Source: Escarpia spicata | Lineage: Eukaryota > Annelida > Polychaeta > Sabellida > Siboglinidae | Assembly: GCA_963995525.1 (NCBI GenBank) | Contig: OZ023214.1 | Location: 11,793,928-11,857,927, forward strand | Length of the DNA: 64,000 nt | Direction of reading: 5' to 3' | Shown here: positions 1-15,039 of the stretch, piece by piece | Layout of the letters: each line of letters opens with the position of its first letter | Numbering within the stretch: the stretch's first letter is position 1 | Made by a program: the position numbers and the translations under genes | Notes under the pieces: generated by a model | What the model saw: the letters and a program-made list of their open reading frames with translations, nothing else | The model's database searches: none | What the model was told of the DNA's origin: nothing

Positions 1-216
1 CTTTATGGAAACAGCGCTTATGCGTGCGTTTAAAGCGATAATCAGCGGCTTGTTTTATCGAGGTAGCGGCGTGTTAAGCGGTGGACAAATGGATGCGGAA
101 TGACGGTATGTTTATTATGCTAGCAAAACGAAACGAGTGGGATATATAATTTAAAAAAGCTGTAAGCAACGGTAACTTATAGGTAATAGAAAACGAGTGA
201 ACGTGAACGGTGTATT
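1..216. other. Left edge of window, unassigned
   Basis: A plus-strand frame is open from base 2 to a TGA at 101-103 (33 codons, two internal ATGs). It could be the C terminus of a gene beginning outside the window, but it is too short to identify. The rest has no recognisable feature. Confidence 0.3.
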
Positions 217-221
217 TTATT
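216..221 (-). terminator. Poly(A) signal AATAAA overlapping a stop codon
   Basis: The minus strand reads AATAAA, with the TAA stop of the 217-588 ORF inside it. This compaction is typical of small DNA virus genes and supports that ORF. Confidence 0.5.
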
Positions 222-588
222 GAGGGACAGCACGACGGTGGCGTGAAATTGGTGGTGCGACGCTGTCCGAATGTCCCAAGCGCAGTAATTGAGCAGAGCG
301 CGTACGAGCTGCAATACGCCGCCTTTTCAATGCAGTAGACGCATCTATCGGCGTTAACGATAGCTCATTAAAACCATGTCGTTCAAAGAGTTCATCGACT
401 GGTGGTGGTGTGTACCAGGACCCATTCGCCCCGAGTACGGTGAAAGATGTCATGAGACCGTCGGGTTGATCGACTGTGGTCGGGTCGACCTCCGTCAACG
501 CCGGCCCGGTGGCGTCCAACGAAGCCTCCTCCTCGGGTGTTGTTGGCGGTCGTGGCACCCCGGTGACACGACATAGGGGAACTGTCAT
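217..588 (-). CDS. Hypothetical viral protein, 123 aa
   Basis: Not recognised. The ORF starts at ATG 586-588. It has a proline/threonine-rich N-terminal half, an acidic middle containing DELFERHGF, and an Arg-rich stretch (KRRRIAARTR) near residues 88-97. The GC-rich ORF contrasts with the AT-rich DNA on its upstream side. Its stop lies within an AATAAA signal, which favours a real gene. The frame stays open upstream of the ATG for about 20 codons and crosses a possible 3' splice site (ttcattcacag), so the true start could be on another exon. An overlapping 103-aa frame at 392-703 is treated as a shadow. Confidence 0.4.
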   Translation of the reverse strand: MTVPLCRVTGVPRPPTTPEEEASLDATGPALTEVDPTTVDQPDGLMTSFTVLGANGSWYTPPPVDELFERHGFNELSLTPIDASTALKRRRIAARTRSAQLLRLGHSDSVAPPISRHRRAVPQ

Positions 589-824
589 GTCTAAGTATGC
601 GCGTGTCGGCAGGATGACGGCGCGTCGTAGGTGGTTTCTGTGAATGAATCATTTGGTAAATAAGTGAAGTGTATAGGAAAAATAAATAAAAGAACGAAAG
701 CATTAAATAGCAGTAAATAAAATATGAAAATAGTAAGTTACCGGAAAAGTAAATAGCACGTTTGCTATGTAGTAGATAATGAATATTTTGTTGTTGTTGT
801 TATGATAACTGTGAATAGAAATAA

Positions 825-1172
825 CCTCTGTCATATATGAAAAGGGGAGTTTTGAAAACGAAATGTATTTAAAACTGACAGATCTAAGAAATAATTAAAG
901 AAGAAATTATAAATCGGGGTAATAGGAAAAGAAAATAACCACTAAAATAAACTTATAGTTTAATATGTAAATGAAGAAATAAGAGTTATATGAAAATGAC
1001 CTCTGTCATATATGAAAAGGGGAGTTTTGAAAACGAAATGTATTTGAAAACTGACAGATCTAAGAAATAATTAAAGAAGAAATTATAAATCGGGGTAATA
1101 GGAAAACAAAATAACCACTAAAATAAACTTATAGTTTAATATGTAAATGAAGAAGTAAGAGTTATATGAAAA
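825..1172. repeat. Two-copy 175-bp tandem repeat
   Basis: The copies begin at 825 and 1000 with the same sequence cctctgtcatatatgaaaag. They differ by only a few bases over about 173 bp, so the duplication is recent. Confidence 0.9.
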
Positions 1173-1297
1173 TAAGAAGTACCTTTGTTCTTTTGCAGCG
1201 GCATTTGTTGACGTAGGTAGCGCTCGGGATGTGGCCATGACAAAGAATGAGCGAACCGGTGCGTTGTTGTGTAACGTTAGGTATGTGTTAAGAGCGC

Positions 1298-1735
1298 ATG
1301 CGCAAAAGTTATGTAAAAAACAGTGAAAGGAAAGATATCAAAATATCAATAAGTGACCGTTTAAATACCAAAATGAACCGTTGCAGCCGCTTAGTTAGGG
1401 ATCAGGCATATTGTGGAGTGTTAATAATAGAGAAATTCGATGTGAAAGTAACATTTAACGCAGGACGTACTAAAGTGACCGTGTAATTTTTTTCTTGGCG
1501 CTGGATGGTGACGCAAAACAGCTGTGACGCTAATGGAGGGTTCTTATCGTGAAAGGAATGTGAAGCGCGAACAATGCTTTTTCCAAACCGTAAACGACGG
1601 GTTAAAAGTATGAATTTAAGCGTTGTGTGGGATCAGTGGCGTGTAGGGAATTAAGTGGTGTGGTTATTGTAGAAAAATTGGCTGTAAATAAACGTTTGTC
1701 AACGAACGCACTACATGACCGTCTGATTTTTTTCC
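1298..1735 (+). repeat. Diverged tandem duplication with a decayed small ORF
   Basis: A 62-codon frame at 1298-1486 ends in a segment containing GVLIIEKFDVK. About 250 bp later (near 1640-1735) a related segment reads GVVIVEKLAVNK in another frame, with intervening stops. Both units end in a T-rich run after a gaccgt-like motif. They look like two copies of a short gene or control segment, one decayed. Function is unknown. Confidence 0.4.
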
Positions 1736-1831
1736 GGAAATAAAAGTCATCGGATACTAGGCGGTTATGCGTTGTAATAGAAACATCGATTAGGGGGGTA
1801 TGCGTTAAGTACGCATGCGCCGTATGTTGCC

Positions 1832-1839
1832 TATATAAA
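1832..1839 (+). promoter_or_regulatory. TATA box of the early block
   Basis: TATATAAA in the context gcctatataaa. Initiation about 30 bp downstream would fall near 1862, just past the ATG at 1857, which favours translation from ATG 1926. The same 11-bp context recurs at 2789-2799. Confidence 0.7.
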
Positions 1840-1925
1840 GCGGTGGAAAATTTTGTATGAGGTATAATGCAAGTGGTGTGACTGATTTCAGCAGCAACAG
1901 CCGTAGAAGTTCTTCAACCTCGAGA

Positions 1926-2645
1926 ATGGCCGAGCGCGACGAGATGACTGCACCGTTGAAAAAGATGAAGGCGATGCGCAAGCAAACGTGTAAGGCGAGC
2001 GGTAGTCAACAACAGCCGCCTGCGGAAGTGACCACACCAGCTGCTAAGAGACCCTTGTTGGTTGCGTCCTCGTTTGGTCGTAAACGAGGGGCAGAAGAAG
2101 CGGGGTTGGCGGCACCGCTGACTAGACGGGCCTCGCTTGAGCGAGAATGCAACACTGCAACGCCATCACAGGCTACCTTGGTGAGTGTAAGGGAACTGGC
2201 CGGTTCTAAGAACGGTGTCTACAAGCTTAAGACTTCAGCATATATCGAGGCAGTGAGTTATCGTGATAAATGCACGTACAGGGGCTGTTCCCAATGTCGA
2301 CGCAAACTGTATGAAAACACAGACGGCGTGATGTTATGTCGAACCCACGGGGAACCTGATAAGGTAAAAAATTACTTTGCTTTGCGTGTCATGATTCGAG
2401 ATGGCGATGACGAAGAAGATGAAATGTGGCTGACTTTGTTTGACACGCAAATGGCAAAGCTGGTTGAGTACCGGGCTGATTACTTGGTGGAGTTAAACGA
2501 GGAGGAACTTCGCGATACTGTACTTGAGTTGGCCGGCACTAAAGTGGATATCAGTGTTCGTAAGACTACCTGGGGCGGTGAGCCGTCGTATACGGTGCGC
2601 ACACTGAGGAGAGTCGTTGATGGTAATGGGTTTCTTGTGTTATAG
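1926..2645 (+). CDS. RPA-like single-stranded DNA-binding protein (OB-fold)
   Basis: The product is 239 aa from ATG 1926; an in-frame ATG at 1857 adds 23 residues but lies too close to the TATA box. Residues 1-85 are basic and low-complexity, with likely nuclear-localisation clusters (KRPLL, GRKRG). Residues about 86-239 resemble the C-terminal OB-fold of the large RPA subunit. Cys116, Cys121, Cys138 and His141 (with Cys124 nearby) match the zinc-ribbon insertion, and a strand-rich stretch with MWLTLFDTQMAKL follows, like the RPA pattern. Expected role: coating ssDNA during protein-primed strand-displacement replication. A perfect donor (GTGAGT) at 2181 sits exactly between the two parts in phase 0, so the N-terminal part may also be spliced to later exons. 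The assignment is from motif pattern, not a search. Confidence 0.7.
   Translation: MAERDEMTAPLKKMKAMRKQTCKASGSQQQPPAEVTTPAAKRPLLVASSFGRKRGAEEAGLAAPLTRRASLERECNTATPSQATLVSVRELAGSKNGVYKLKTSAYIEAVSYRDKCTYRGCSQCRRKLYENTDGVMLCRTHGEPDKVKNYFALRVMIRDGDDEEDEMWLTLFDTQMAKLVEYRADYLVELNEEELRDTVLELAGTKVDISVRKTTWGGEPSYTVRTLRRVVDGNGFLVL
2181..2186 (+). other. Candidate 5' splice donor, phase 0
   Basis: TTG|GTGAGT after codon 85 of the RPA-like ORF. It matches the metazoan donor consensus and lies at the boundary between the basic N-terminal region and the OB-fold. Confidence 0.6.
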
Positions 2646-2777
2646 GAGGCCCCGCTGTTGACGGCATTGCTAACTAGTAAACCGACTAGTGATGAAGCGG
2701 CGCGCTTACTAGCCGAGATAGCGGAAAATTACGTAATGGCCTGGTGTGCGGCTTACGAAGCAAAGAGAGCCTACTAG
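2646..2777 (+). CDS. AUG-less open exon A, 43 codons
   Basis: Directly after the TAG stop of the RPA-like ORF the same frame is open for 43 codons to a TAG at 2775-2777. The stop is part of a good 3' splice site (tttcttgtgttatag), so this exon could join the donor at 2180/2181 in phase 0. The peptide is probably helical, with Leu/Ala-rich heptads, and contains RLLAEIAENY. The alternatives are stop readthrough or chance. No family recognised. Confidence 0.4.
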   Translation, partial: EAPLLTALLTSKPTSDEAARLLAEIAENYVMAWCAAYEAKRAY

Positions 2778-2791
2778 AAAGACGCTCAGCC

Positions 2792-2799
2792 TATATAAA
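2792..2799 (+). promoter_or_regulatory. Second early TATA box
   Basis: TATATAAA with the same upstream context as the box at 1832. Initiation near 2822 would allow translation from ATG 2854. Confidence 0.55.
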
Positions 2800-2829
2800 A
2801 CATGACATTTATTTGTTGTATGTCTACAG

Positions 2830-3000
2830 GAGGTGCGGCGAATTCTGCTGGAAATGTTAGCCAATAATGAACGGATGCGTGCGAGATACGCCGAAGTTGC
2901 CCTGTTCGTACGAACACTACTCGATCGTTCGGTGACGGATAGTGAGAGGAAAGACGCCTCGTTGATGGCTCGTGTTAATGCAGCAAAAGAGGTGGATTAA
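2830..3000 (+). CDS. Small helical protein or open exon B
   Basis: The open frame starts right after a 3' splice site (gttgtatgtctacag) at 2830 and ends with TAA at 2998-3000: 56 codons in phase 0 relative to the 2181 donor. Alternatively it is a 48-aa protein from ATG 2854 under the TATA box at 2792. It is charged and probably helical (MRARYAEVALFVRTLLDR). No family recognised. Confidence 0.45.
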   Translation, partial: EVRRILLEMLANNERMRARYAEVALFVRTLLDRSVTDSERKDASLMARVNAAKEVD

Positions 3001-3097
3001 TGATAATAATGTGTTTTGTAGAGAGCGCGACGCCCCGAACGCGCGCACGCTCGCCGTGGGAAATGTGTGTTTGTAGGCACCTGCTTTTGTGCTGTAG

Positions 3098-3679
3098 GGA
3101 TGCGCGGGCGATGTCGATAGCGCCTTGGATGCTATCATTGAGGAGGCTCTTGGTACACCACCGCCTTACGAAAGTTTACACCAGCTTGTACCGTTGGACG
3201 CGATGCAACGACGCGTCGTCGAACCGGGGCGTGGTCAGGTGGCCTGTCGCTATGAGCGACATGCGCTGGCCCTCCTCGCTGAGCACCTCGGTGAGTTGAT
3301 ATTGGAGGCGGCGCGCGATCGATGCGGTGCTTGCGAAGTGAACGAGGGATGCCCGTACGTGCATATGATCGGCTATCGGGCGGGTAGGCCTACTCGTGAG
3401 TACGCACGGCGCTACGAGAACGTAGTCGAACTCGTCACGCAACACTTCAACGTAGTGTTGGACTCGTGTCTGCAGCACTCACTGATACCAACCTTCATAC
3501 GTCTGGTGGAGTTACTACACGCGAAGGCGCACGGACAGCAACCGGGACGAGCTGGGGAATTGTATTTGGTACAGTTCGTATCCGACTGGCTCCTCGGTAC
3601 GAATTGGCGCGAATTCGTCAATCGATCTCGACTAGAGTCGGCAGTGCACGTCTACGTACAGTGCAGAAGCGGTCTTTAA
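3098..3679 (+). CDS. Hypothetical protein or open exon C, 193 codons
   Basis: The frame opens at 3098, immediately after a strong 3' splice site (cacctgcttttgtgctgtag), and runs 193 codons to a TAA at 3677-3679. There is no in-frame ATG near its start; the first usable-looking codon is TTG 3125, which is unlikely in a eukaryotic virus. Joining to the 2181 donor would be in phase 0. The product has a Cys/His cluster (CGACEVNEGCPYVH) that could bind zinc and a helical C-terminal half. An AATAAA follows 72 bp later. No family recognised. Confidence 0.55.
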   Translation, partial: GCAGDVDSALDAIIEEALGTPPPYESLHQLVPLDAMQRRVVEPGRGQVACRYERHALALLAEHLGELILEAARDRCGACEVNEGCPYVHMIGYRAGRPTREYARRYENVVELVTQHFNVVLDSCLQHSLIPTFIRLVELLHAKAHGQQPGRAGELYLVQFVSDWLLGTNWREFVNRSRLESAVHVYVQCRSGL

Positions 3680-3750
3680 ATTAAAAAACGAACATTACTG
3701 CCTATTCTGCTGATTTTGCTTAATATCGCTTTTCGTTGTACGACACGCTT

Positions 3751-3756
3751 AATAAA
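3751..3756 (+). terminator. Poly(A) signal of the early block
   Basis: AATAAA, the only one I found between the RPA-like start and the CA repeat. It would serve all four plus-strand modules from 1926 to 3679, consistent with one transcription unit. Confidence 0.6.
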
Positions 3757-3791
3757 ACGTTGAAAATGTACGTTCCTCGTTTCCGAGTTAA

Positions 3792-3792
<1 letters not shown>

Positions 3793-3855
<63 letters not shown>

Positions 3856-3931
3856 ACACCACACCACACCACACCACACCACACCACACCACACCACACC
3901 ACACACACACCACACACCACACACCACACAC

Positions 3932-4012
<81 letters not shown>
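3793..4012. repeat. CA microsatellite inside the viral element
   Basis: An imperfect (CA)n tract with a central CACAC-type 5-bp and 7-9-bp variant block. It lies between the early block and the iteron-like array. ORFs over it in all frames are low-complexity shadows. Confidence 0.95.
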
Positions 4013-4016
<4 letters not shown>

Positions 4017-4405
4017 TACTTAACAAAACCACCACCACCACCCATATACTTAAGAAAAAAACATCACCCCAATAAGCACCTAACAAAAAACCACGTGGTG
4101 TATCATTAGTCGTTACTTAACAAAACCACCACCCCACTTAACAAAACCGCCACCCCATACGCGTCGCTAACAAAGACACACCACACCACGTGTGTCCCGT
4201 ACCTCGATATCATTAGTCGTTACTTAACAAATCCACCACCCCGTTACCTAACAAAACCACCACCCCACTTAACAAAACCGCCACCCCATACGCGTCGCTA
4301 ACAAAGGCACCACACCACGTGTGTCCCGTACCTCGATATCATTAGTCGTTACTTAACAAATCCACCACCCCGTTACCTAACAAAACCACCACCCCCACAT
4401 TACAT
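4017..4405. repeat. Iteron-like array upstream of the polymerase gene
   Basis: A core of the form cTAACAAAACCACCACCCC recurs about eight times. It is embedded in two nearly identical 130-bp units starting at about 4137 and 4267, which also contain acgcgtcgctaacaaag and cgtacctcgatatcattag. The complement is G-rich (GGGGTGGTGG). The array ends about 30 bp before the polymerase TATA box, so it could be enhancer repeats, an initiator-binding array or a structural element. No function is demonstrated. Confidence 0.85.
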
Positions 4406-4432
4406 CACTCACTGCGCATGTCCGTACCTCGT

Positions 4433-4440
4433 TATAAATA
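4433..4440 (+). promoter_or_regulatory. TATA box of the polymerase gene
   Basis: TATAAATA, 36 bp before ATG 4476, predicting a very short leader. Confidence 0.75.
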
Positions 4441-4475
4441 GAGGTATTCGAAAAAGTAGCAGCACAAAGAAAAGT

Positions 4476-7400
4476 ATGCCACCTACTAGGTGGCAATGTC
4501 CGAAATGCGGTGCTTATTTCTCGAAACAGTCGACGTTAGAGCGACACGCGAAGAGTTCGAAACGATGCGGCGATGACGCGCTATGCGTAAAGCGACGAGA
4601 GTGTCCGAAATGCGGCGTAACGTACAGTACGCGCGCCGTGATGCTACGACACCTGAGGGAACGGTGCGGTCAGCCGGCGGTGTCGTTACCCCCCGATGAT
4701 AATCCACCACCACCACCACCACCCGATGCTCTTCAGCGCGTCGTGGACGAGCATCGACGTAGCATAGAGACGTCGGTAGCGATCGGTGTCGTACAGTCCC
4801 GTTACAACTATCGTATGACCGCCTGTACGAGTACGCGGGTGCTCGAACCGCGTCTGAGGGTTATGTTTAGCGAACAAAAGAATGCGTTTAAAATAAACGT
4901 AAGCTATGGTTTCGTGTTACGCCACAAGGTATCGGGTCGTTACCGCTATTTTCATTCGTCCTGTAACTGCTGCGGTCGCCTTCTCGAAACACCCGCCCTC
5001 GTAACCGATAGCCGTTCTTTCGAACGATTCCTCGATCTCGTGCGCACGACCGACGTACTACAGTACGTCATCGCGCAGCGCCCCGATTCGGAGTGGTTGG
5101 TCGAGCTCGTAACGAACGCCACCTACTTCGTGAACGCCATCCTAAACCATCCTATCGGGTGCGTTGGCACCGCGCTCCCCGCCTACGTACGTAACAACAT
5201 CCACCTCGTGGCGTTGACGAATACTCGGGGAGGCAAGCCCTACGACGATCCTCTATGCCTCTTCCGATGCATCGCCCTCCATCGGCAAGGTGGTGGTGGT
5301 GGGAGGCACCTAAATACAACCCGTTTAACGCGAGTAGCTAAACAACTGAGCGCGCGCTACGCCCCGAAGCCGATCGGCGTGCGCCTGAACGAACTGGAAC
5401 GCGTGGAGACGTTTTTTCGTATCAACATCGTCGTCTATCGACTAACGGCGACTGGCGCCGCCGAACTAGTCCGTCGATCGCTCGAAGCGCACCCCACAAC
5501 CCTGAATGTCAACCTGTACGAGAATCACTTTTCGTACATAACCGATCTGCGCGCGTACGCGAAAACGTACAAGTGCTCGAAATGCGGCAACTCCCTCTGG
5601 CGGTACCCGTCACTATTACGACGTCACGAAGCGACGTGCGAGGGCGGTGTTCGTCACGTGTTTCCCGGTGGCGTCTACCGACCGAAGCCGTCCGTATTTC
5701 AACGACTCGACGACGAAGGTATCGACGTCGGCGACGACGATCTGCGCTACTATCCGTACCGCGCGACCTTCGACTTTGAATGTTATTTCGCCACCAACGA
5801 GCTACCGCCGGATACCGATAAATGTCGGTGGCTAGCGCGACACGAACTGCTCAGCGTGAGCGTCGCGTCGAACGTGCCAGGACACGAAGCGGCGCGCTGT
5901 TACGTCACGACCGGTGATTCGGCCGACCTAGCGCGTCGCCTCATCGATGACCTGGAAGCCGTGAGCGCGGCGGCTTGCGCGCTTCTACGCCCCCGCTACG
6001 ACGCGGTCTTTGAGGCGCTCGAAGCGCTCGATAAAGACTGGCGGCAACGAAGTGACGACGACGCCAAGGACGCGTCACCGTACGCCGCACTCGCCGACCG
6101 CCTGTGGACGCACCTTCGTCAAATGCCCGTACTGGGTTTCAACAGCGGTAAGTACGATTTGAATGTCGTCAAAAAGTACTTGACCCCCCTGCTCATAACG
6201 GACGACGCGCAGCACACATCGTCGACGTTCACGATTAAACGACAGAACGCTTACATGTGCCTGACGACGTCGACGTTGAAATTTCTGGACATAACTAATT
6301 ACCTCGCGCCCGGTGTCAGCTACGAGCGCTATCTGAAAGCGTACGACTGCGCGGCGACCAAGGGGTACTTTCCGTACGAATATATCGACGCGTTGACGCG
6401 CCTGGACGAGACCGTCCTACCGCCGCGCGAAACTTTCTACAGCCACCTGAAACGCGAGGGAATCTCCGCGGAGGCTTACGAAATTTGTGCGACGGCATGG
6501 CGCGACGAGTGCATGACGACGATGCGCGATTTTCTAATCTGGTATAATAACCGAGATGTGGCGCCGTTTCTCGAGGCCCTCGAGCGGCAGTTCGCCTTCT
6601 ATCGCCGTCAGCGCATCGACATGTTTAAGGACACCATCAGCGTACCGGGGTTGACGTTGTTGTACCTATTCAACGACCTGCCGTCGTCAATCCATTTCTC
6701 GTTGTTCAACGAACCGAACAAAGACCTGCACCGCCTACTGCAGTCGCAGATCGTCGGCGGTCCATCGATCATCTTCTCGCGTCATCAAGAAGCCGGCGTG
6801 ACGTCGATTCGAGGCGGTGACAACCCGTGTCGTTCGATAGTGGGCTACGACGCGAACGGTCTCTATCTATCGGCGATGATGCGGGAAATGCCGACGGGTT
6901 GGTACACGCGCCGACGCGCGGAGAACGACTTTCGAGCGGAACACGTGCACCGCTACGGTCGTATGGCCGTAGAGTGGTTGACGTACGAAGCGGAACGAAT
7001 AGACGCCCCTATACGACACCAGTTGAACGGCCGCGAGAAGCGCATCGGTAAGTACCGAGTCGACGGTTGGTGCGCCGCCACGCGAACGGCGTATCAATTT
7101 CACGGTTGTTTCTTTCACGGCTGCCCGATATGCCAGACGCACGTGACGACGAACGCCGTCAACGGTCAACCGATGACGACTCTGTACGCCGCGACGATCG
7201 CCGTGACGGTCTACCTGCGCCGCCACGTTGACGCCGTCGTCGAAATGTGGGAGTGCCAGTGGCGAGCCGTGAGACCCCCCGCCGTGACGCGACCCGACGC
7301 GAGGCGCGTAACGCACTCGACGATACTGGCGGGTGTACGCGACGGCTCTCTATTCGGTCTCGTGCAGTGCGATATCGCCGTGCCGGAAGCGCTGCGCGCT

Positions 7401-8558
7401 AAGTTCGCCGAAATGCAGCCCGTATTCAAGAACGTCGATATCGCACGCGACGACCTCAGCCCGTTCATGCGCCGCTACGCCGAGTCACACGAGCTACTCA
7501 CCCGACCTCAACGGACGCTCGTTGGTAGCTACTTCGGCACGGCGATCGTACTCGCCACGCCCCTTCTACGCTGGTATCTGGAGCACGGGCTCGTCGTCGC
7601 GCGCATCTACCAGGTGATCGAGTACACGCCGATCGCCTGCTTTCGTCGTTTCGGCGATACGGTGTCGACGGCGCGACGCGAGGGCGACGTCGACCCCGAT
7701 AAAGCGATCATCGCCGACACCTTCAAACTACTCGGCAACAGTTCGTACGGGAAGACGATTACGCGCGTCGATCGGCACCGGGATATCAAGTACGCTACGT
7801 CGGTAGGCGCCGCGCGACTCGTCAACAACCGTCGCTTCCGGCAACTCGACGTCGTCGTCGACGACGAGCTGTACGAGGTGGCGCTGAATAAGCGCACCGT
7901 CGTCTACGATCTGCCGATTCAAATCGGTTATTTCGTGTATCAATACGCGAAATTACGAATGCTGGAGTTTTATTACGACTTCGTCGACGCCTACATTCCA
8001 CGCCCGCTCTTTCAGTACTGCGCTATGGACACCGATTCGGCGTACATAGCCCTCGCGGGTCTCGACATCGACGCGCTCGTACCGGAAGCGATGCGCGAAC
8101 ACTACTTCCGGACGCGATCGCTCTGGTTTCCGGCCGAATGTTGCGACGCGCACGTGGACGCGTACGTACGGTGCCGCGTCGCCGGACTGACGTGGGAGGG
8201 TGGTGACTGCTGCGCGCGCCGTCTTCTATTCGATCGTCGAACGCCGGGTCTCTTCAAAGAAGAGTGGCGCGGCGACGGAATCGTGGCGCTGTGCAGTAAG
8301 ACGTACTACTGCTTCGGCGGCGACTGCGGCGCGAAGTACAGCACGAAGGGATTGAGTAAACGTCAGAACGATATCGACGAGCACGACTTCCTCGCCGTAC
8401 TGCGCGACCGACGCAGCGGCGTCGGTTGGAACTACGGTTTCCAAGTGAAAAACTCGTCCGTGTTGACGTACGTTCAAGAGCGCGCGGCGTTGAGCTATTT
8501 CTACGCTAAACGCCGCGTGCTCGACGATGGCGTCACCACGGCGCCGATACTCGTCTAA
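4476..8558 (+). CDS. Protein-primed DNA polymerase, family B (pPolB)
   Basis: The product is 1,360 aa, the usual size for animal Polintons. The N terminus has two C2H2-like zinc fingers (about residues 8-31 and 43-64), each starting CPKCG, and a third Cys/His cluster lies near 365-389 (KCSKCG). Between them, a segment with CLFRCIALH and a later HFSYI resembles the conserved Polinton N-terminal domain, possibly a cysteine-peptidase-like fold. Exonuclease motifs: DFECYF (about 431) and LGFNSGKYDLN (about 552). Polymerase motif A is YDANGLYLSAM (about 788), motif B KLLGNSSYGKT (about 1083) and motif C MDTDSAYI (about 1183). All catalytic acidic residues are present, so it appears functional. Its role is replication of the linear element from a terminal-protein primer. 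It has its own TATA box and an AATAAA 90 bp past the stop. Confidence 0.95.
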   Translation: MPPTRWQCPKCGAYFSKQSTLERHAKSSKRCGDDALCVKRRECPKCGVTYSTRAVMLRHLRERCGQPAVSLPPDDNPPPPPPPDALQRVVDEHRRSIETSVAIGVVQSRYNYRMTACTSTRVLEPRLRVMFSEQKNAFKINVSYGFVLRHKVSGRYRYFHSSCNCCGRLLETPALVTDSRSFERFLDLVRTTDVLQYVIAQRPDSEWLVELVTNATYFVNAILNHPIGCVGTALPAYVRNNIHLVALTNTRGGKPYDDPLCLFRCIALHRQGGGGGRHLNTTRLTRVAKQLSARYAPKPIGVRLNELERVETFFRINIVVYRLTATGAAELVRRSLEAHPTTLNVNLYENHFSYITDLRAYAKTYKCSKCGNSLWRYPSLLRRHEATCEGGVRHVFPGGVYRPKPSVFQRLDDEGIDVGDDDLRYYPYRATFDFECYFATNELPPDTDKCRWLARHELLSVSVASNVPGHEAARCYVTTGDSADLARRLIDDLEAVSAAACALLRPRYDAVFEALEALDKDWRQRSDDDAKDASPYAALADRLWTHLRQMPVLGFNSGKYDLNVVKKYLTPLLITDDAQHTSSTFTIKRQNAYMCLTTSTLKFLDITNYLAPGVSYERYLKAYDCAATKGYFPYEYIDALTRLDETVLPPRETFYSHLKREGISAEAYEICATAWRDECMTTMRDFLIWYNNRDVAPFLEALERQFAFYRRQRIDMFKDTISVPGLTLLYLFNDLPSSIHFSLFNEPNKDLHRLLQSQIVGGPSIIFSRHQEAGVTSIRGGDNPCRSIVGYDANGLYLSAMMREMPTGWYTRRRAENDFRAEHVHRYGRMAVEWLTYEAERIDAPIRHQLNGREKRIGKYRVDGWCAATRTAYQFHGCFFHGCPICQTHVTTNAVNGQPMTTLYAATIAVTVYLRRHVDAVVEMWECQWRAVRPPAVTRPDARRVTHSTILAGVRDGSLFGLVQCDIAVPEALRAKFAEMQPVFKNVDIARDDLSPFMRRYAESHELLTRPQRTLVGSYFGTAIVLATPLLRWYLEHGLVVARIYQVIEYTPIACFRRFGDTVSTARREGDVDPDKAIIADTFKLLGNSSYGKTITRVDRHRDIKYATSVGAARLVNNRRFRQLDVVVDDELYEVALNKRTVVYDLPIQIGYFVYQYAKLRMLEFYYDFVDAYIPRPLFQYCAMDTDSAYIALAGLDIDALVPEAMREHYFRTRSLWFPAECCDAHVDAYVRCRVAGLTWEGGDCCARRLLFDRRTPGLFKEEWRGDGIVALCSKTYYCFGGDCGAKYSTKGLSKRQNDIDEHDFLAVLRDRRSGVGWNYGFQVKNSSVLTYVQERAALSYFYAKRRVLDDGVTTAPILV

Positions 8559-8647
8559 CTCGTATAACTAAACCTACCCTAGGGGTGGGGGGCCGCCTAG
8601 GGGTAGGGTTCTGTATGTATGTATGTATGTAGGTAGGGTAGGATAAT

Positions 8648-8653
8648 AATAAA
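8648..8653 (+). terminator. Poly(A) signal of the polymerase gene
   Basis: AATAAA 90 bp after the polymerase stop, 38 bp from the opposing signal. Confidence 0.75.
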
Positions 8654-8690
8654 ACAAACACAAGTGCGTACATTTCATCGTCGTTGTTTT

Positions 8691-8696
8691 TTTATT
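8691..8696 (-). terminator. Poly(A) signal of the virion gene block
   Basis: AATAAA on the minus strand, 33 bp past the protease stop. It probably ends the capsid-protease transcripts. Confidence 0.75.
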
Positions 8697-8728
8697 ACTA
8701 CTACTACTATACACGTAAAAGCGAAGCG

Positions 8729-9184
8729 TTAATGCAATGGCTTTAGCCAATCGAATACGAGACAGTCATTAGCCACCCGATCGGTGCCGAATATGTTCTG
8801 GAACGCCGTCAACGGCATGCCGCGACATCGGAGGAGTAGGTAGGCGACGCAATATTGTCCGCACACGTTAGAGACGACGCTCTGCAGTCTCTTGTCGTTG
8901 TACGTCCACGCGTCGCCGCAGTGTCGGTGCAGGAAGGTGCGGAAGTCGGCGTGCAGCGGCGGAAGACCGTACGAATCGAAGTACTCGCCGACGCCTCGGG
9001 GGTCGACGTAGACGGCCACCCAGTGCTCCCCCGGTTCGCCGCCGTCGTCGGTATTGCACACGAAGCCCATCGGGTAAGTGGTGGCGGTGGTGGAAAGTAG
9101 CGCGTCTTTAGGTACGACGCCGCGGACGGTGTATTTAGCGTACGCATCGAGTTCGAGGCGACGCAGCAGTTGGAACGTATCCAT
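8729..9184 (-). CDS. Adenain-type virion maturation cysteine protease
   Basis: The product is 151 aa. It matches adenovirus-type protease architecture: His54 in GEHWV, Asp70 in EYFDSYG, Gln101 in LQSVVS and the nucleophile Cys112 in CGQYC. The family cleaves precursor virion proteins during maturation. It is slightly shorter than adenovirus protease (about 200 aa) but all catalytic positions are present. Its ATG overlaps the capsid gene stop by one base (TAATG), suggesting coupled translation or a shared transcript. No separate TATA box is evident. Confidence 0.92.
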   Translation of the reverse strand: MDTFQLLRRLELDAYAKYTVRGVVPKDALLSTTATTYPMGFVCNTDDGGEPGEHWVAVYVDPRGVGEYFDSYGLPPLHADFRTFLHRHCGDAWTYNDKRLQSVVSNVCGQYCVAYLLLRCRGMPLTAFQNIFGTDRVANDCLVFDWLKPLH

Positions 9185-10488
9185 TACGAGGTACAGTCGT
9201 ACAGGACGTTCCGGGTCCGATCGATTTCCAGCACCGTCTCGAATTCCGCGTACACGATGACGTTCACCGGTCGGGGTAGCGGTATCGAGAACTGTATGTT
9301 AGCGCCCACGCTCCCCTGACGCGCGACGTTGAAATGGTCCCCGTCGCAGCAGTCGGGGGTTAGGTCGAAAGCGAAGACGGTGTAGCCGGCTTCGAAGTCC
9401 GATCGCGATATGTCGTTCCCCTCGTCCTCCCCCGCCTTTCCGGTGGCCTCGAAGAGATTCATGTAGCTTCGTATGTACCGGTGGTGCGGAAAGTCCGGTT
9501 GCAGCGGCTTGCTCGGCACCTGACGTCCGTCGACGTTGAGCGCGAGGAAGTTTATGTCGTTGTGATGCGCGTTGAACGGATTTCTAGTGTAGTCTCCGTT
9601 GTAGGCGGCGTTGTCGATCATCATCAGGATTATGCGTTTCGGAATCGTGCCCATGTACAGGTTCTCGTGCGTGTGCGATAGCGTACCCGCGGTTATCGAG
9701 AACGACTTGCAGTCGACGCGGCGCATCGGAAACTTAGCCGTTCCCAAAAGCCACGCTTTGATATGACCCAGCTGGACTTCCGGGTTCAACTTCACTTTTC
9801 GGACTTCCAGGTAAATCGAACGTATCACGATATGCCACCCCGGCGCGGCAGCCGCGCCCATGAGCGCGAAGGCGTCCTTCGACTGGATCATGCGTATTTT
9901 CGTGTCGACGCCGCTCGGTAGGAGGAGGTTTAGCATAAACGCGTCGACGTGCAGGCGTCCCATCATGTCCACCTCGGTACTGGCCGCCGTCAGATCGCGT
10001 CGCGCTACGAACCCGGTGTTATCGTCCCCGCGCGCGTTCATGTGTCCGGCGCTATCTTTGTACCACAACGACCCCGTGAGATGCGATCGTTTCGCGTCGC
10101 TACCGTAACTCAGCAGGGTCTCGATGTAGGCCCGGTACGCGTACGTATTGGTCGACGGCGTCACGAGCGTACCGTTCAGCGACACGTCGATTTGACTGAA
10201 CAGCGAATGAAGGAAATTGTTGACCGGCGCCACATTGGTGCCGGCCGCCAGATCGGTACCGTCCCCCTGAACCACTTTGAAGCGGACGTACATTTGAAGG
10301 CTCGCCAGGTCCGTATAGTCGTTACCCGACCCTGGAATGAGGAACTCGATAGGACCGCCGGCGTCGAGAGCCGTCAGCGGTTGGTAGGCGGTCCGATAAC
10401 TGCTCTCGATGCTCTTCTGCGTCACCGGTCCGGCGAACAGGTCCAGTTCGGCCTTCACGCCCTCGCACGCTGTCTTTACGAACGCCAT
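9184..10488 (-). CDS. Major capsid protein, double jelly-roll type
   Basis: The product is 434 aa. The N-terminal segment (DLFAGPVTQKSIESS, then GGPIEFLIPGSGNDYTDL) is characteristic of animal Polinton capsid proteins, often annotated in animal genomes as F54H12.2-like. It should form hexon-like trimers of the icosahedral capsid. The length is normal for the family and no lesions are visible. The ATG lies 2 bp after the stop of a basic AUG-less ORF, and the stop overlaps the protease ATG. A TATA-like gatatattc lies only 12-20 bp upstream, too close for a standard start, so expression from an upstream promoter is likely. Confidence 0.93.
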   Translation of the reverse strand: MAFVKTACEGVKAELDLFAGPVTQKSIESSYRTAYQPLTALDAGGPIEFLIPGSGNDYTDLASLQMYVRFKVVQGDGTDLAAGTNVAPVNNFLHSLFSQIDVSLNGTLVTPSTNTYAYRAYIETLLSYGSDAKRSHLTGSLWYKDSAGHMNARGDDNTGFVARRDLTAASTEVDMMGRLHVDAFMLNLLLPSGVDTKIRMIQSKDAFALMGAAAAPGWHIVIRSIYLEVRKVKLNPEVQLGHIKAWLLGTAKFPMRRVDCKSFSITAGTLSHTHENLYMGTIPKRIILMMIDNAAYNGDYTRNPFNAHHNDINFLALNVDGRQVPSKPLQPDFPHHRYIRSYMNLFEATGKAGEDEGNDISRSDFEAGYTVFAFDLTPDCCDGDHFNVARQGSVGANIQFSIPLPRPVNVIVYAEFETVLEIDRTRNVLYDCTS

Positions 10489-10490
10489 CG

Positions 10491-10691
10491 TTACGCGTCG
10501 AATATATCGACCGGTCGACGTCCCCGCTTCCGTCTACTGACGGTCGTCGCCGTTCGACGCTGCTTCTTTATAGGCGGTCTTTTTTTCACCCGTCTCTTCT
10601 TCGGCGCCGGCCCTTTCAATAGGCCGTCGAGAAGATCGACGCCGGCCTCCTTCGCGCGTCGTCCACAGATTGGAGTCGCCTTGACCCCGCG
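10491..10691 (-). CDS. Basic AUG-less ORF, candidate virion core protein
   Basis: An open frame of 66 codons lies between in-frame stops at 10692-10694 and 10491-10493 and contains no ATG. It is strongly basic, with PKKRRVKKRPP, KKQRR and RRKRGRRP clusters, like small DNA-binding core proteins of adeno-like viruses. Its TAA is separated by only 2 bp from the capsid ATG, the same tight spacing as the neighbouring genes, which suggests it is translated. The start could come from splicing, a non-AUG codon or a mutated start. A TATATA lies just upstream (about 10,699-10,704). Confidence 0.5.
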   Translation of the reverse strand, partial: RGVKATPICGRRAKEAGVDLLDGLLKGPAPKKRRVKKRPPIKKQRRTATTVSRRKRGRRPVDIFDA

Positions 10692-10720
10692 TTAAATTGT
10701 ATATACTAACGCAGCCGCCG

Positions 10721-11335
10721 CTAACGCAGCCGCCGCCGCTCCATGTACTCCCGATAGCGCGGGTTGCCGACGAACTCCATAGGAATGTTCATACCCTTCA
10801 TACTCAACCCGAAAGCGCGCCATCCTAGGGGCTGCGTCGTCTTCGTTCTCGTTCGCATGAGATCGTTCACTAGATCGACCATGTTACTCCCCGCGATCGT
10901 TTTACCGTCGTACACGAATTCGCCGCGTTCGTTCCATCGACACAAGGGATCGGCTTTCATTTTCGCGATAAGTAGACTCGCCTTCCCTTTCAGCGTTTTC
11001 GGCATGCTGGCTACGATTTCGCGCTCTACGGCCTCCGATGATGGTGGTGGCGCCGTGGTCTGTGGTAGCTCGCCGCCGTCGGCGTTGACCATCGACACGC
11101 GTACCGGTTGCGCCGTTCGAGCCGCCTCTATAGTGTTGTAGCGACTCAGCAGCTGATTGTACGACACCACCTTATCGAGCTCGGATAAATCCGATCGCTC
11201 TAGAATATCTTTCATGTCGCTGTCCAGGCTACTCAGTACACGTAATCGAGGGGTGCTGCTCGACTGCTGCTGCGGTTGAAGGAGACTTTCCACCAATCGC
11301 GGGTCGACCAACGCCATCTTCTTCGCGTACTGCAT
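10721..11335 (-). CDS. Conserved Polinton-type virion-associated protein, 204 aa
   Basis: It begins with KKMALVDPRLVESLLQ and continues with a helical, Ser/Gln-rich N-terminal half. The C-terminal domain contains RWNERGEFVYDGKTI and SNMVDLVNDLM. The same pattern recurs next to capsid genes of animal Polintons as I remember them; its function there is not established and a minor virion protein is likely. It starts 3 bp after the preceding stop. The C terminus is Arg-rich (MERRRLR) and the last 15 bp are duplicated just past the stop (10,706-10,735). Confidence 0.7.
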   Translation of the reverse strand: MQYAKKMALVDPRLVESLLQPQQQSSSTPRLRVLSSLDSDMKDILERSDLSELDKVVSYNQLLSRYNTIEAARTAQPVRVSMVNADGGELPQTTAPPPSSEAVEREIVASMPKTLKGKASLLIAKMKADPLCRWNERGEFVYDGKTIAGSNMVDLVNDLMRTRTKTTQPLGWRAFGLSMKGMNIPMEFVGNPRYREYMERRRLR

Positions 11336-11338
11336 CGC

Positions 11339-11746
11339 TTAACCCCCGATGAACTGTTTGAGTAGTGGCAGGAAAACGGTGCTCGCTAACGGCGCTAGCA
11401 GGGCCGTCAGAAAACCACCCGCCCCCGTTTGCAAGATGGCTCGTTTCCGCTTCACCGGAATTCGTTTGTTGACCAAGTCACGCAGGTGATCTCTGTATTT
11501 TGTCAACACGCGTTTCTGCTTCGGCGACACCTTCACGTTCCCTCTCAGAATATTGTACGCGCAATCGCATAGACTACATATGAGACCGACCTCCGAGTGG
11601 GCGAGCACGGCTTTTCGCAGATCTACGTTCCGCTTATGTCTATCCATCAACTGCAGGGCGAAAACGTGTCTCTTCAGACGTCGCGCCGAAACGTCGTCAG
11701 TCTTCGGTCGTCGCTTCGCCGCTACCACCGCGCGTCTTCCCGGCAT
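11339..11746 (-). CDS. Basic protein with hydrophobic tail, virion-type, 135 aa
   Basis: Basic N terminus (MPGRRAVVAAKRRPK), a Cys pair (CSLCDC) in the middle, then KRKRAILQTGAGGFLTALLAPL and a hydrophobic C terminus of about 28 residues that could insert in or disrupt membranes. The GGFL-hydrophobic ending is typical of a small ORF in animal Polintons. A pVI-like or core role is inference. A TATA box lies 36 bp upstream. Confidence 0.65.
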   Translation of the reverse strand: MPGRRAVVAAKRRPKTDDVSARRLKRHVFALQLMDRHKRNVDLRKAVLAHSEVGLICSLCDCAYNILRGNVKVSPKQKRVLTKYRDHLRDLVNKRIPVKRKRAILQTGAGGFLTALLAPLASTVFLPLLKQFIGG

Positions 11747-11781
11747 ACCGACTAATGCGTACGCGGCGACGTCCCTCTCTA

Positions 11782-11787
11782 CTTATA
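11782..11787 (-). promoter_or_regulatory. TATA box inside the ATPase stop codon region
   Basis: The minus strand reads TATAAG. The ATPase TAA stop lies within it, and the 135-aa gene starts 36 bp downstream. Confidence 0.55.
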
Positions 11788-12433
11788 GTTGACCACCACC
11801 ACCACCACCACCCTTCCGTACGTAGACGTACTGAAGGGGGTCGTCCGGAAATATACACGTACGCAGGCGCATGTACTCTTCCGTTTCCTGTTTCAGGTCG
11901 ACGAAGAGATAGCCGTACGCCGGCGACGTCGCGTTTTTGAAAGACTCTATCATGTACTTGACCTCTCCCGGATACATCTGTTTCGCTAGGTGACCTACTT
12001 GACCAACGTCTCGGGGGTTCTTAAATAGTGCTAGGTATTGGGCGTTCAGGCTGATTGTGCGGTTTTCTCCCCCTTTCGGAAACATGTTCTGTCGGAGTTG
12101 TACGACCGACGTATTACAATGATGACTTTTTTTAGTAAATAGCGCCGTCACCCCACTATCGGCTTCCTCCATGAGGTCGTCGAGTACTAAAAGCGTCCTC
12201 TTTTTACCGTCTAAATACGTCGTAGTCGGCAGGCCGTCTACGAACTCTATTTCCGGAGCCATAGACGCGTAGGCGGGCTGCCACTGCCCGTAACACCACA
12301 GGACTTTTTCGGGCGCCGGATCGATCATAGCGCTTCGTATCAGACGGTCGACGAACGTCGTCTTACCGCATCCCGTAGGCCCTGATACTATACACGTAAA
12401 CGGATGCTTCAACAACGGTCCGCTCATTTTCAC
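11783..12433 (-). CDS. Genome-packaging ATPase (FtsK/HerA, A32-like)
   Basis: The product is 216 aa. Walker A is GPTGCGKTT (about residues 15-23) and Walker B is RTLLVLDDLMEEA (about 79-91). The short length and the Leu-Asp-Asp Walker B fit Polinton packaging ATPases, which pump DNA into the procapsid. The C terminus ends in a Gly run. It has its own TATA box inside the NADAR 3' end. The motifs are intact. Confidence 0.93.
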   Translation of the reverse strand: MKMSGPLLKHPFTCIVSGPTGCGKTTFVDRLIRSAMIDPAPEKVLWCYGQWQPAYASMAPEIEFVDGLPTTTYLDGKKRTLLVLDDLMEEADSGVTALFTKKSHHCNTSVVQLRQNMFPKGGENRTISLNAQYLALFKNPRDVGQVGHLAKQMYPGEVKYMIESFKNATSPAYGYLFVDLKQETEEYMRLRTCIFPDDPLQYVYVRKGGGGGGGQL

Positions 12434-12455
12434 GACTGATACTGGCTGATGTTTT

Positions 12456-12911
12456 TTACGCGTCTTTATAAAAGGAGCGCACCTCCATCAACAGTTTACC
12501 GAGCTTGTTCTCGCCCTCGACGTCACCAAGCCGGGTACCCCAGAAACCCTCCCTACTCGGCACCCACTCCACCAAGTCGGCGTCCCCAGTGGCCAACAGT
12601 TCGGCCTTCAACTCCCCGCCGAACTTACTTATCAACAGCCCCTTCATACAGGCGACCCTAACGACGTTCCAGTCGGTTCCCGTTCTCTTTTTTCGAATAC
12701 CGTAACTGAGTCGTTTCGCTGCGTAGGGCGATCGCGTTCTTTTGATACACGCGGCGCAAGCGAGGTCTTCGTTGAATAGCGCTTTCCTATACTGATAGGC
12801 GTGCTCGACGGATCGGAAGACCCGACCGTACGCCGTCAATCGGCACCTGTACATATTCGACAAGAAGGAGCGCGAACCGCCAAACTTTATACGTTCCGAC
12901 GACGACAACAT
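12456..12911 (-). CDS. NADAR-family protein (YbiA/DUF1768-like)
   Basis: The product is 151 aa, the typical single-domain length. Diagnostic features are GGSRSFLSNMY, FRSVEHAYQYRKA and GFWGTRLGDVEGENKLGKLLMEVR. NADAR proteins act on ADP-ribose and riboflavin-pathway derivatives; members remove ADP-ribose from guanine in DNA or hydrolyse N-glycosidic bonds in damaged intermediates. A role for the virus could be reversing host or competitor nucleotide modification, or NAD-linked metabolism; this is inference. It is the first gene of the minus-strand block and has a TATA box at 12,941. Confidence 0.85.
   Translation of the reverse strand: MLSSSERIKFGGSRSFLSNMYRCRLTAYGRVFRSVEHAYQYRKALFNEDLACAACIKRTRSPYAAKRLSYGIRKKRTGTDWNVVRVACMKGLLISKFGGELKAELLATGDADLVEWVPSREGFWGTRLGDVEGENKLGKLLMEVRSFYKDA
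12465..12470 (-). promoter_or_regulatory. TATA box of the ATPase gene
   Basis: The minus strand reads TTTTATAAAG, about 35 bp before the ATPase ATG and overlapping the 3' end of the NADAR gene. Confidence 0.65.
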
Positions 12912-12940
12912 GACTACTACCGATAAAAAGCGCTACCGCC

Positions 12941-12946
12941 TATATA
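12941..12946 (-). promoter_or_regulatory. TATA box of the NADAR gene
   Basis: The minus strand reads CTATATAGG, 30 bp upstream of ATG 12911. Confidence 0.65.
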
Positions 12947-12984
12947 GTCACGCTCCCGGGACAGGCGCCGGCTTCTATGAGCCC

Positions 12985-13217
12985 TTCGATCGCTAGTCGT
13001 TGATCGCTTAGGACGTTGATCGCTAGGTGTGACTTGGGTTAATCGCTAGATGGCGTTATCACGTAACTAGGGACGCTGTTATTAATCGCTAGATGGCGCC
13101 TGTCGTTCACAAAAAAGTGACAGGCCATCAATCACGTTTTTTATAAGTAGGTTCCCGATTTCTCTCAGGTTACCAAAAAGCCTTTGATCTTTTTTTTATA
13201 AGTAGGTTCCCGATTTT
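12985..13217. repeat. Right flank of viral element with short repeats and a hairpin
   Basis: Several copies of ATCGCTAG or ATCGCTAGATGGCG occur at 12,990-13,100. A hairpin-forming CCTGTC...GACAGG lies at about 13,098-13,125. A direct repeat of ttttataagtaggttcccga is at 13,139 and 13,194. No matching inverted sequence was seen at the left edge. This could be terminal control DNA. Confidence 0.6.
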
Positions 13218-13286
13218 GAAATCGACGTTTTTTATGCACGTAGTTAGATACAAAAGGGGCGTGGTTTGGGGCATGTGTATCCTACT

Positions 13287-14271
13287 AACTACTGTCCGAC
13301 TTTATCGTTTCTGGATATCCGAACATGGCAAAAATGGACTCCATGATCGGTATAACTGTCTCTGCACTGGTGCTTCTGGTCAAGTGAACGACTGGATATC
13401 TTGAATATTAATCTGTGACGCTGAGTAAATATTCGCCTGTCGTAACTGGGCCGCAGAAATCAATGCTCAGATTGATCCACGGGCCTCGCGGTAGAGTAGT
13501 CATGTTTAATGGCTCCATCTGGCGGCGGTTGGAGTTTGCAACACACGGAATGCAACCCATGACAACTGCTTCCGTTTCTTTGTCTATGCCTGGAAACCAC
13601 ACTTTGCTTCTGATCAGAGCTTTGGTCTTGCAGATGCCCTGATGACCCTCATGTACCAACTGTATGACACAACTGCGAAGTGCTGTCGGGATGACAATGC
13701 GAGAATCTCGTAGCAGAAAGTCTCCATTTTCTCCCACTGTCAGTTCATCCATCACTTTCCGGAATGCAGCAATGTCAGCTGACTCGTTGTTAGCTGTGTC
13801 ATGCCAACGACCTGTGCGGATGACCTCGATGACCTTGTTTAAGGTCGCGTCTTGTCTTGTGTGCACCTTAATTTCGTCAAGGGTGATGGCATTTGGCGTA
13901 GAGCTGTCAGCAATGTGATTGATGAAGTCCTCAGCCATACGCTGCGCTTGGCTGGCTTTTGTTGCTGGATTGACTGGCTGTGCACGTTTCTTTTGCCACG
14001 TCTGTGAGCTGCGCTGTGACTGTTGCCTTGGTTTGCTTCGGCACATGACAGCGAAATGTCCACGCACTCCACATTTGTGACACTCTTTATCACGTGTGCA
14101 CTTGCATTCGTCACTTGTATGGCCCTGTAAGCCACAGCGAGTGCACCGATCGTGACGTTGCTGAGTGTTAGAATGTCTGTTGACCGGTTTACGAGTGTGC
14201 GTTTCGAATGGTATGTGTGCTGACCTGTTGAATGCAGCATACACTGTGTTGTTTGCTTTGCCACGAGCCAT
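13287..14271 (-). pseudogene. gypsy gag zinc knuckles joined to integrase, broken
   Basis: Two CCHC knuckles (CTRCGLQGHTSDEC and CHKCGVRGHFAVMC) are followed within about 100 residues by an integrase zinc-binding region (HEGHQGICKTKALIRSKVWFPG) and the start of the catalytic core (SIDFCGPV). A stop interrupts at 13,408, after which the core continues to about 13,287. The protease-RT-RNase H segment is absent, by internal deletion. Confidence 0.75.
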
Positions 14272-14275
14272 GTCT

Positions 14276-14801
14276 TTAGCCTGGCGTTCTGACGATTCTC
14301 TCGTTTGCGATCGCCCTGTTTAGCGTGAGATCCTTTCCTGCGGCCAGGAGTTTGGTACGCAACGAATCAGAGCGACACCGATCGATTACTTGATCTCTGA
14401 TGTACTCATCGACATTGTTCCCGTAATCGCATGACGATGTCAGCTGTCGTAACCGTGTTACGAACTGCCCGACGGTTTCGCCTTCATGCTGTTCAGCGCG
14501 ATGAAACATGTGCCTTTGTACGGGACGTTTGATGTAGGCGTGAAATAGTCCGTCAGTAGTTCTTTTGTCTTTTGAAACGACGACGACGTACCTGTTTCTG
14601 GGATTGTATCATAAATGTCATGTACGCCTTCGCCCGCGGTGTGTAACAGCAAATCACGTTTTTGTTTGTCATCGGTGCATCCGACGCACTGGCCATCCTG
14701 TCAAAGTTTCGTATCCACTTTTTCCAACGTTCAGCCGTTGTTGAAGGCTCGTTTTGTGCATCGAAGGGCGGTAGTTGGGCCACATTGATCGGAACAGCCA
14801 T
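14276..14801 (-). pseudogene. gypsy gag, frameshifted
   Basis: Gag of the Ty3/gypsy type starts at 14,801 (MAVPINVAQLPPFD...RWKKWIRNF) and continues in other frames to 14,276 (RAEQHEGETVGQFVTRLRQL). Frameshifts break it into at least three pieces. Confidence 0.7.
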
Positions 14802-14869
14802 GGTGATTCGGTACGGTAGGCGGTTGCTTACTTGTAGGCTTAGCAGGTTCGCTTAATTCTCGTCGCCAT

Positions 14870-15039
14870 TGTATGATTGCTGCTGTTAAATGAAACACAC
14901 CATTTATCAGACTGAACAAAACATGGCCGTCGTTTATTATCTGATCCGACCAGCACCGGAGAAATCCGAAGTCAACGGGATCCGTCCGTAATACATAGGC
15001 TACGTATGTAAATAACATACAGGGAGCGGCTATATTACA
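14870..15039 (-). repeat. 5' LTR of truncated gypsy element
   Basis: On the minus strand it starts TGTAATATAG and ends CATACA, just before the gag leader. About 170 bp. The other LTR is missing. Confidence 0.55.

Follow-up and report, generated by a model that had tools for sequence, protein, structure and literature searches.

Does a gene of a Polinton-type element in an annelid make four proteins by offering one splice donor to three alternative acceptors? The question is raised by a locus in a stretch of 64,000 nucleotides from Escarpia spicata (assembly GCA_963995525.1, contig OZ023214.1, positions 11,793,928 to 11,857,927 of the forward strand), which we call the window and from whose first base all coordinates are counted. 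An initial annotation of the window had noted a consensus donor within a reading frame for an RPA-like protein and, downstream of it, three acceptor-like sites that open frames in the same phase, and had suggested that one transcript gives four proteins with a common basic N-terminus. Comparison with relatives of the element elsewhere in the genome supports this suggestion: judged from sequence, it is highly probable that the locus is a one-donor, three-acceptor unit whose four products would share an 85-residue tag, and we infer that donor and acceptors are used by the spliceosome.

The sites, phases and frames of the initial annotation were recovered by inspection and by script exactly where it had placed them, all on the forward strand. 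A presumed promoter with the TATA box TATATAAA (1832 to 1839) precedes the tag, which starts at ATG 1926 and forms the coding part of exon 1 (1926 to 2180). The donor, TTG/GTGAGT, has its GTGAGT at 2181 to 2186 and a phase 0 junction at 2180/2181, and the unspliced frame continues across it into a domain resembling the C-terminal OB domain of RPA70 (2181 to 2645; Pfam Rep_fac-A_C, 4.4e-11; PDB 6i52_C, replication factor A protein 1, 2.9e-6). Three AG acceptors, each in phase 0, lie further on: acceptor A (2644 to 2645, context ttcttgtgttatag/GAG) opens terminal exon A, 43 codons and a TAG (2646 to 2777); acceptor B (2828 to 2829, ttgtatgtctacag/GAG) opens terminal exon B, 56 codons and a TAA (2830 to 3000); and acceptor C (3096 to 3097, cttttgtgctgtag/GGA) opens terminal exon C, 193 codons and a TAA (3098 to 3679). 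A shared poly(A) signal, AATAAA, follows at 3751 to 3756. The first in-frame ATG is codon 31 in A, codon 9 in B (2854) and codon 36 in C (3203), with none upstream, which bears out the earlier statement that B has ATG 2854 and that A and C have no suitable AUG. The accompanying estimate that three acceptors would share a phase by chance with a probability of about 1/27 is a weak argument, given that in the window A already lies in the OB frame, that the AGs of acceptors A and C belong to TAG stops in frame, and that of 54 AGs in the stretch a loose filter for acceptors lets through 6, the proposed three among them.

The case against chance rests instead on the diverged copies, in which the arrangement is conserved. 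The comparison drew on close copies at 45 distinct places including the window (about 92–100% identical; 54 rows included 9 duplicates), on 17 diverged copies (L054–L070) with a C protein about 57–78% identical, which together with the window make up the 18 copies referred to below, and on a hold-out of six copies fetched afterwards (L072–L077), in which acceptor B was read directly; the diverged copies thus number 23, and the donor is countable in 22 of them, L056 being without the region. The donor is GTGAGT in 45/45 distinct close copies, in 16/16 diverged copies having the region and in 6/6 hold-out copies (22/22 diverged copies overall). Acceptor A is AG in all 45 close copies and in phase 0 in 16/17 diverged and 6/6 hold-out copies (22/23); the figures for acceptor B are 45/45, 17/17 and 6/6 (23/23), and those for acceptor C are 44/45 (AC in L041), 15/17 and 6/6 (21/23). 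A check for donor phase and acceptors in related elements, as the initial annotation had proposed, therefore finds them kept in nearly all diverged copies. Matches to OB, A, B and C stand in that order in 17/17 diverged copies, although of OB only the end is matched in L056, and in all six hold-out copies, and the search of the 17 diverged copies gave no tag match in L054 and L056. Exon A has a best tblastn match of 49–85% identity, and exon B one of 60–82%, in each of the 17. Eight copies (L054–L059, L069 and L070) carry two extra codons after acceptor A with the phase kept, and in L076 exon B is shortened by a frame change. A second, partial exon B match (residues 9–31 of the stop-to-stop B frame) precedes the main exon B in L058 (L058:1604–1672) and is possibly a partial exon duplication. 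At the outer ends of the unit, a TATAWA box lies 338–385 nucleotides 5' of the donor in 13/17 diverged copies under a strict pattern, AATAAA is present in 44/44 distinct close copies reaching that point, and a poly(A)-like hexamer lies 3' of C in 18/18 copies.

Coding selection extends up to each acceptor. Between the window and each copy, reading in the proposed frame gives a ratio of nonsynonymous to synonymous differences (pN/pS) of 0.33 for codons 1–30 of A, 0.37 for codons 1–8 of B and 0.31 for codons 1–28 of C, as against 0.60–4.77 when the same stretches are read in shifted frames (1.09 and 1.65 for A); over all pairs the values are 0.54 for A (codons 1–38), 0.32 for B (1–8) and 0.32 for C (1–28). 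The values for A come from 17 of the 18 copies (L065 excluded) and those for C from 12 (L060, L063 and L067–L070 excluded for broken frames). In none of the 18 copies is A, B or C preceded by an in-frame AUG; A has no ATG at all in eight of them, and the first ATG of C shifts between codon indices 25 and 96 among the 12 copies with an intact C. A comparison of the C protein with the genome gave 1443 candidate places, and among the best 150, which were scored, four contain a stop and 149 have alignments that start at residue 1 (one at residue 2), even though the first AUG in the window comes only after 35 codons of C.

The donor itself appears to be held at the nucleotide level. GTGAGT encodes Val-Ser, and both codons are fixed across the copies tested (14 of the 18; L056, L059, L069 and L070 excluded). 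Among the 17 residues that are invariant in these 14 copies and have at least fourfold degeneracy, three are written with a single codon, and two of the three are the donor codons; among all invariant degenerate residues, 9 of 36 use a single codon. A Val-Ser pair 24 codons downstream serves as an internal control: it is GTGAGT in the window only, and the 15 other copies that keep the pair all write it differently (GTATCG, GTGTCT, GTGTCG or GTATCT). From −330 to +1100 around the donor, GTRAGT occurs only at the donor in 20/23 copies, with extra occurrences in the window, L065 and L073.

The tag probably starts at ATG 1926, which is kept in 45/45 distinct close copies, while ATG 1857 stands some 25 nucleotides from the TATA box (1832) and is not matched in frame in L058, L062, L063 and L067. 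An acceptor-like TTTCAG/CAG stands in the 5' untranslated region (1885 to 1925), just 5' of ATG 1926, and several copies have a similar TTTCAG or TTACAG there. The net charge of the tag is +7 in the window and +5 to +7 across nine copies (the window and eight diverged copies picked for an open tag), all nine of which carry KR and GRKR clusters. These two basic clusters look like a bipartite nuclear signal, and nuclear delivery would be the simplest common role of the tag.

More can be said of C than of the other terminal exons. PPxY motifs are tied to WW-domain proteins, and such a motif lies at C residues 21–24 and recurs (as PPPY, PPAY, PPTY, PPSY or PPMY) in 12 of the 13 aligned members having that part; in the window it precedes the first AUG of C and would thus be made only if C is spliced. 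Cys76, Cys79 and His89 are invariant and Cys85 is nearly so, in a Cys-x2-Cys-x5-Cys-x3-His pattern that suggests a zinc site (motif and pattern both lie within 3098 to 3370), and from the two features together C might, tentatively, be an adaptor recruiting host WW-domain proteins. Protein searches with C returned only two relatives, P0001 (203 aa) and P0002 (178 aa), one of the searches having scored the best 8000 word-sharing candidates. P0001 begins with Met at the position of C residue 3, which could be a real start or merely the first ATG taken by a gene caller. A protein search with the tag-OB frame found no relative at E 0.01, and scans of viral_contigs with PolB, the family B DNA polymerase of the element, and with the C alignment yielded no confirmed relative. 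The look of the C-terminal part of C had suggested a Bcl-2-like protein, a reading that was dropped after Pfam and PDB sequence searches showed no such family.

A number of observations weigh against a unit of one donor and three acceptors. All copies come from one 1.06 Gb genome and are related, and neither the counts nor the pN/pS pairs are independent. Branch-point-like motifs accompany acceptor A in 17 of the 18 copies, B in 8 and C in 5; acceptor C has a short AG-free zone and a weak context; and the loose filter passes all three sites in 12/18 copies and two of the three in 6/18. Acceptor A is lost in L065, which has TAT instead of TAG; acceptor C of L060 and L063 is TAAG, one base out of phase; the donor region was not found in L056; and in 5/18 copies a poly(A)-like hexamer also lies between the donor and acceptor C. 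All 18 copies have an AUG at codon 9 of B. No database protein was found with the tag joined to C, P0001 and P0002 both being without it. Before it reaches the donor, the tag frame runs into a stop or a change of frame in 8/16 diverged and 2/6 hold-out copies (10/22), and in L066 the tag is broken while OB, A, B and C are open; we read the broken tags as decay of old copies, and they could also point to a different first exon in some copies. A second GTRAGT lies 365–384 nucleotides 5' of the donor, near the TATA box, in 7/23 copies (L060, L062, L063, L067, L072, L074 and L076), a possible alternative leader donor in that lineage. The last two points bear on an explanation in which A, B and C are spliced to an AUG-bearing 5' exon elsewhere, another leader or a trans-spliced one, so that the donor at 2181 is either one of several partners or none. 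Acceptor conservation alone names no donor, and the acceptor-like strings before ATG 1926 fit such an exon; with the upstream GTRAGT they possibly mark a non-coding leader. We nevertheless hold this explanation to be quite unlikely, as the upstream GTRAGT is absent from 16/23 copies, the window among them, and the donor at 2181 combines frozen codons, a near-exclusive position and a phase that fits the acceptors.

The AUG within B bears on a second explanation, in which B would be expressed as a gene of its own, from a private promoter and the AUG at 2854, and only A and C would need splicing. The initial annotation had allowed for such a promoter, and the window does have a TATA box, TATATAAA, 38 nucleotides before acceptor B; it is the only one of 18 copies that has one there, and the suggestion finds no support in the relatives. 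It had also held that conserved AUGs of their own in the downstream frames would speak against splicing. For A and C there are none; for B there is one, yet the eight codons before it are under selection, acceptor B is kept in every diverged copy, and L072, a hold-out copy, has AAG in place of the ATG. We regard a separate B gene as improbable. Still less probable, to the point of being very doubtful, is that readthrough, frameshifting, re-initiation or non-AUG starts on an unspliced mRNA account for all three frames. In the window, A does come after the stop of the OB domain without a change of frame, as readthrough would have it, and non-AUG starts were judged by eye. The donor-acceptor offset, however, varies modulo 3 for all three exons over the 17 diverged copies (12/3/2 for A, 8/6/3 for B and 9/4/4 for C), in part through decay in old copies, so that the frames agree only once the intervening RNA is removed, which argues against readthrough or frameshifting; in-frame stops, mostly TAG, directly before most frames and the absence of upstream AUGs argue against translational solutions as well. 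That the splice-like sites are accidents and the downstream frames decayed remnants would draw on the choice of three AGs, after the fact, from the 54 on offer; purifying selection in all three frames and the retention of the sites in the hold-out copies leave it a negligible probability, and the relatives contradict it.

If the unit works with one donor and three acceptors, a single transcription unit would begin at the TATA promoter near 1832 and end at a poly(A) site downstream of 3751, its transcript being used in four ways. With the intron retained, it would give the tag and the RPA70-C-like OB domain, presumably a single-stranded DNA-binding protein for replication by the polymerase of the element; spliced from 2181, it would exchange the OB domain for A (43 aa), B (56 aa) or C (193 aa), each with its own stop. 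The tag would serve for nuclear targeting or as a docking module common to the products, and how much DNA-binding protein is made relative to accessory proteins would depend on intron retention competing with the three acceptors, in the manner of the early regions of adenoviruses.

The cassette belongs to a Polinton-type element of about 13.9 kb that extends from 593 nucleotides before window base 1 to 13293. A 239-nucleotide inverted match, 95% identical and beginning AGTAGTTAGTAG, forms the inverted terminal repeat, and a 6-bp target duplication, GTCCGA, stands on both flanks, both in keeping with Polinton/Maverick elements; AG/AGT-type end motifs are described for Mavericks (PMC8097293). 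The element encodes PolB (4476 to 8558; DNA_pol_B_2, 5.1e-7) with a C2H2-like finger, an A32/IVa2-like packaging ATPase (Adeno_IVa2, 6.7e-8; Pox_A32, 5.1e-5) and an adenain-like cysteine protease (PDB 6lj9_B, S273R, 5.4e-4 over 41 residues), the last without a Pfam match; the ATPase and the protease are likewise as in Polintons. The frame at 9184 to 10488, by its look a candidate for a jelly-roll capsid protein, gave no Pfam, PHROG or PDB sequence match. Between the cassette and PolB (3793 to 4395) lie a long AC/ACACC repeat and a 129-bp tandem repeat of 2.2 copies, a region that aligns unevenly across copies. No rve integrase was found among 11 translations scanned, namely four cassette pieces, PolB and six right-arm open reading frames (the short and overlapping frames 217–588, 392–703, 8809–9147, 10081–10695 and 10785–11141 were outside the scan). 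Given the 6-bp duplication and no rve found in this set from the element (1–13293 and L071:5336–5928), integration may proceed in trans or via another enzyme. The flanks (L071:4446–5482 and window 13408–14971) have a weak rve match on the left and Integrase_H2C2 (4e-12) on the right, and the element appears to have inserted within the integrase gene of a long terminal repeat retrotransposon, of which the two flanks hold different parts. The last gene of the element, on the minus strand (12456 to 12911), has a NADAR domain (PF08719, 1.6e-21), which to our knowledge is unusual in a Polinton-type element; farther along, a riboflavin transporter gene, SLC52 (4e-116), lies at 22689 to 23900 on the minus strand and points to an animal host.

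The T antigens of polyomaviruses have a common N-terminus and several alternatively spliced C-termini, a similar sharing in unrelated proteins of a small circular genome. The nearest parallel that we found is E1B of adenovirus type 5, in which, according to PMC9663300, a donor inside the 496R frame serves three acceptors and the products 93R, 156R and 84R share 79 N-terminal residues with 496R (E1B-496R/55K). The donor in a long frame, the three acceptors, the unspliced long product, the four products and the common N-terminus (79 versus 85 residues) all have counterparts in the cassette. In E1B the 156R splice rejoins the 496R frame, whereas none of the cassette acceptors lies before the OB stop and each leads into a terminal exon of its own; the long product of the cassette, moreover, is RPA-like. 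No E1B family occurs among Pfam matches up to E 1. The cassette would, by its sequence signals, work like E1B, and membership in E1B is not supported.

Among its closer kin, the element shares with vertebrate Mavericks/Polintons a family B polymerase, an A32/IVa2-like ATPase, a cysteine protease, the (AGT)2 end motif and the duplication of 6 bp at the target. According to PMC8097293, and in line with Kapitonov and Jurka 2006, intact Mavericks of vertebrates carry eight intronless open reading frames, or seven in Xenopus tropicalis; the present element differs in that one gene is predicted to be alternatively spliced and in that no integrase was found among the translations scanned. It is also like adintoviruses and other meldviruses, which carry adenovirus-like PolB and virion genes in animals and for which alternative penton isoforms made by frameshifting have been suggested; in the paper concerned, 'splic' and 'intron' occur once each, neither concerning adintoviruses (PMC11071296). 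A spliced multi-acceptor Polinton gene is mentioned neither in the available portions of PMC8097293, PMC12220804, PMC11071296 and PMC4028283 nor among the matches listed. The cassette would thus bring a splicing topology known from elsewhere to a kind of element for which the literature, to the extent of these portions, did not show it.

A broader proposal, which we consider unlikely, is that the cassette is an early-region switch of Polinton type, in which a regulated pre-mRNA chooses between a single-stranded DNA-binding protein for replication and three tagged accessory proteins, and that this layout and that of E1B descend from a common arrangement in the adenovirus-Polinton lineage or evolve repeatedly within it. 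If the switch and a common lineage were both true, alternative splicing in these viruses would predate adenoviruses. The one-donor, three-acceptor cassette by itself, apart from this broader proposal, would mean that gene prediction from open frames misses whole proteins, as it would for A and C, which have no usable AUG, and that elements of this kind need the spliceosome of their host. Adenoviruses would then not be alone among their relatives in splicing an early-type region alternatively and under regulation.

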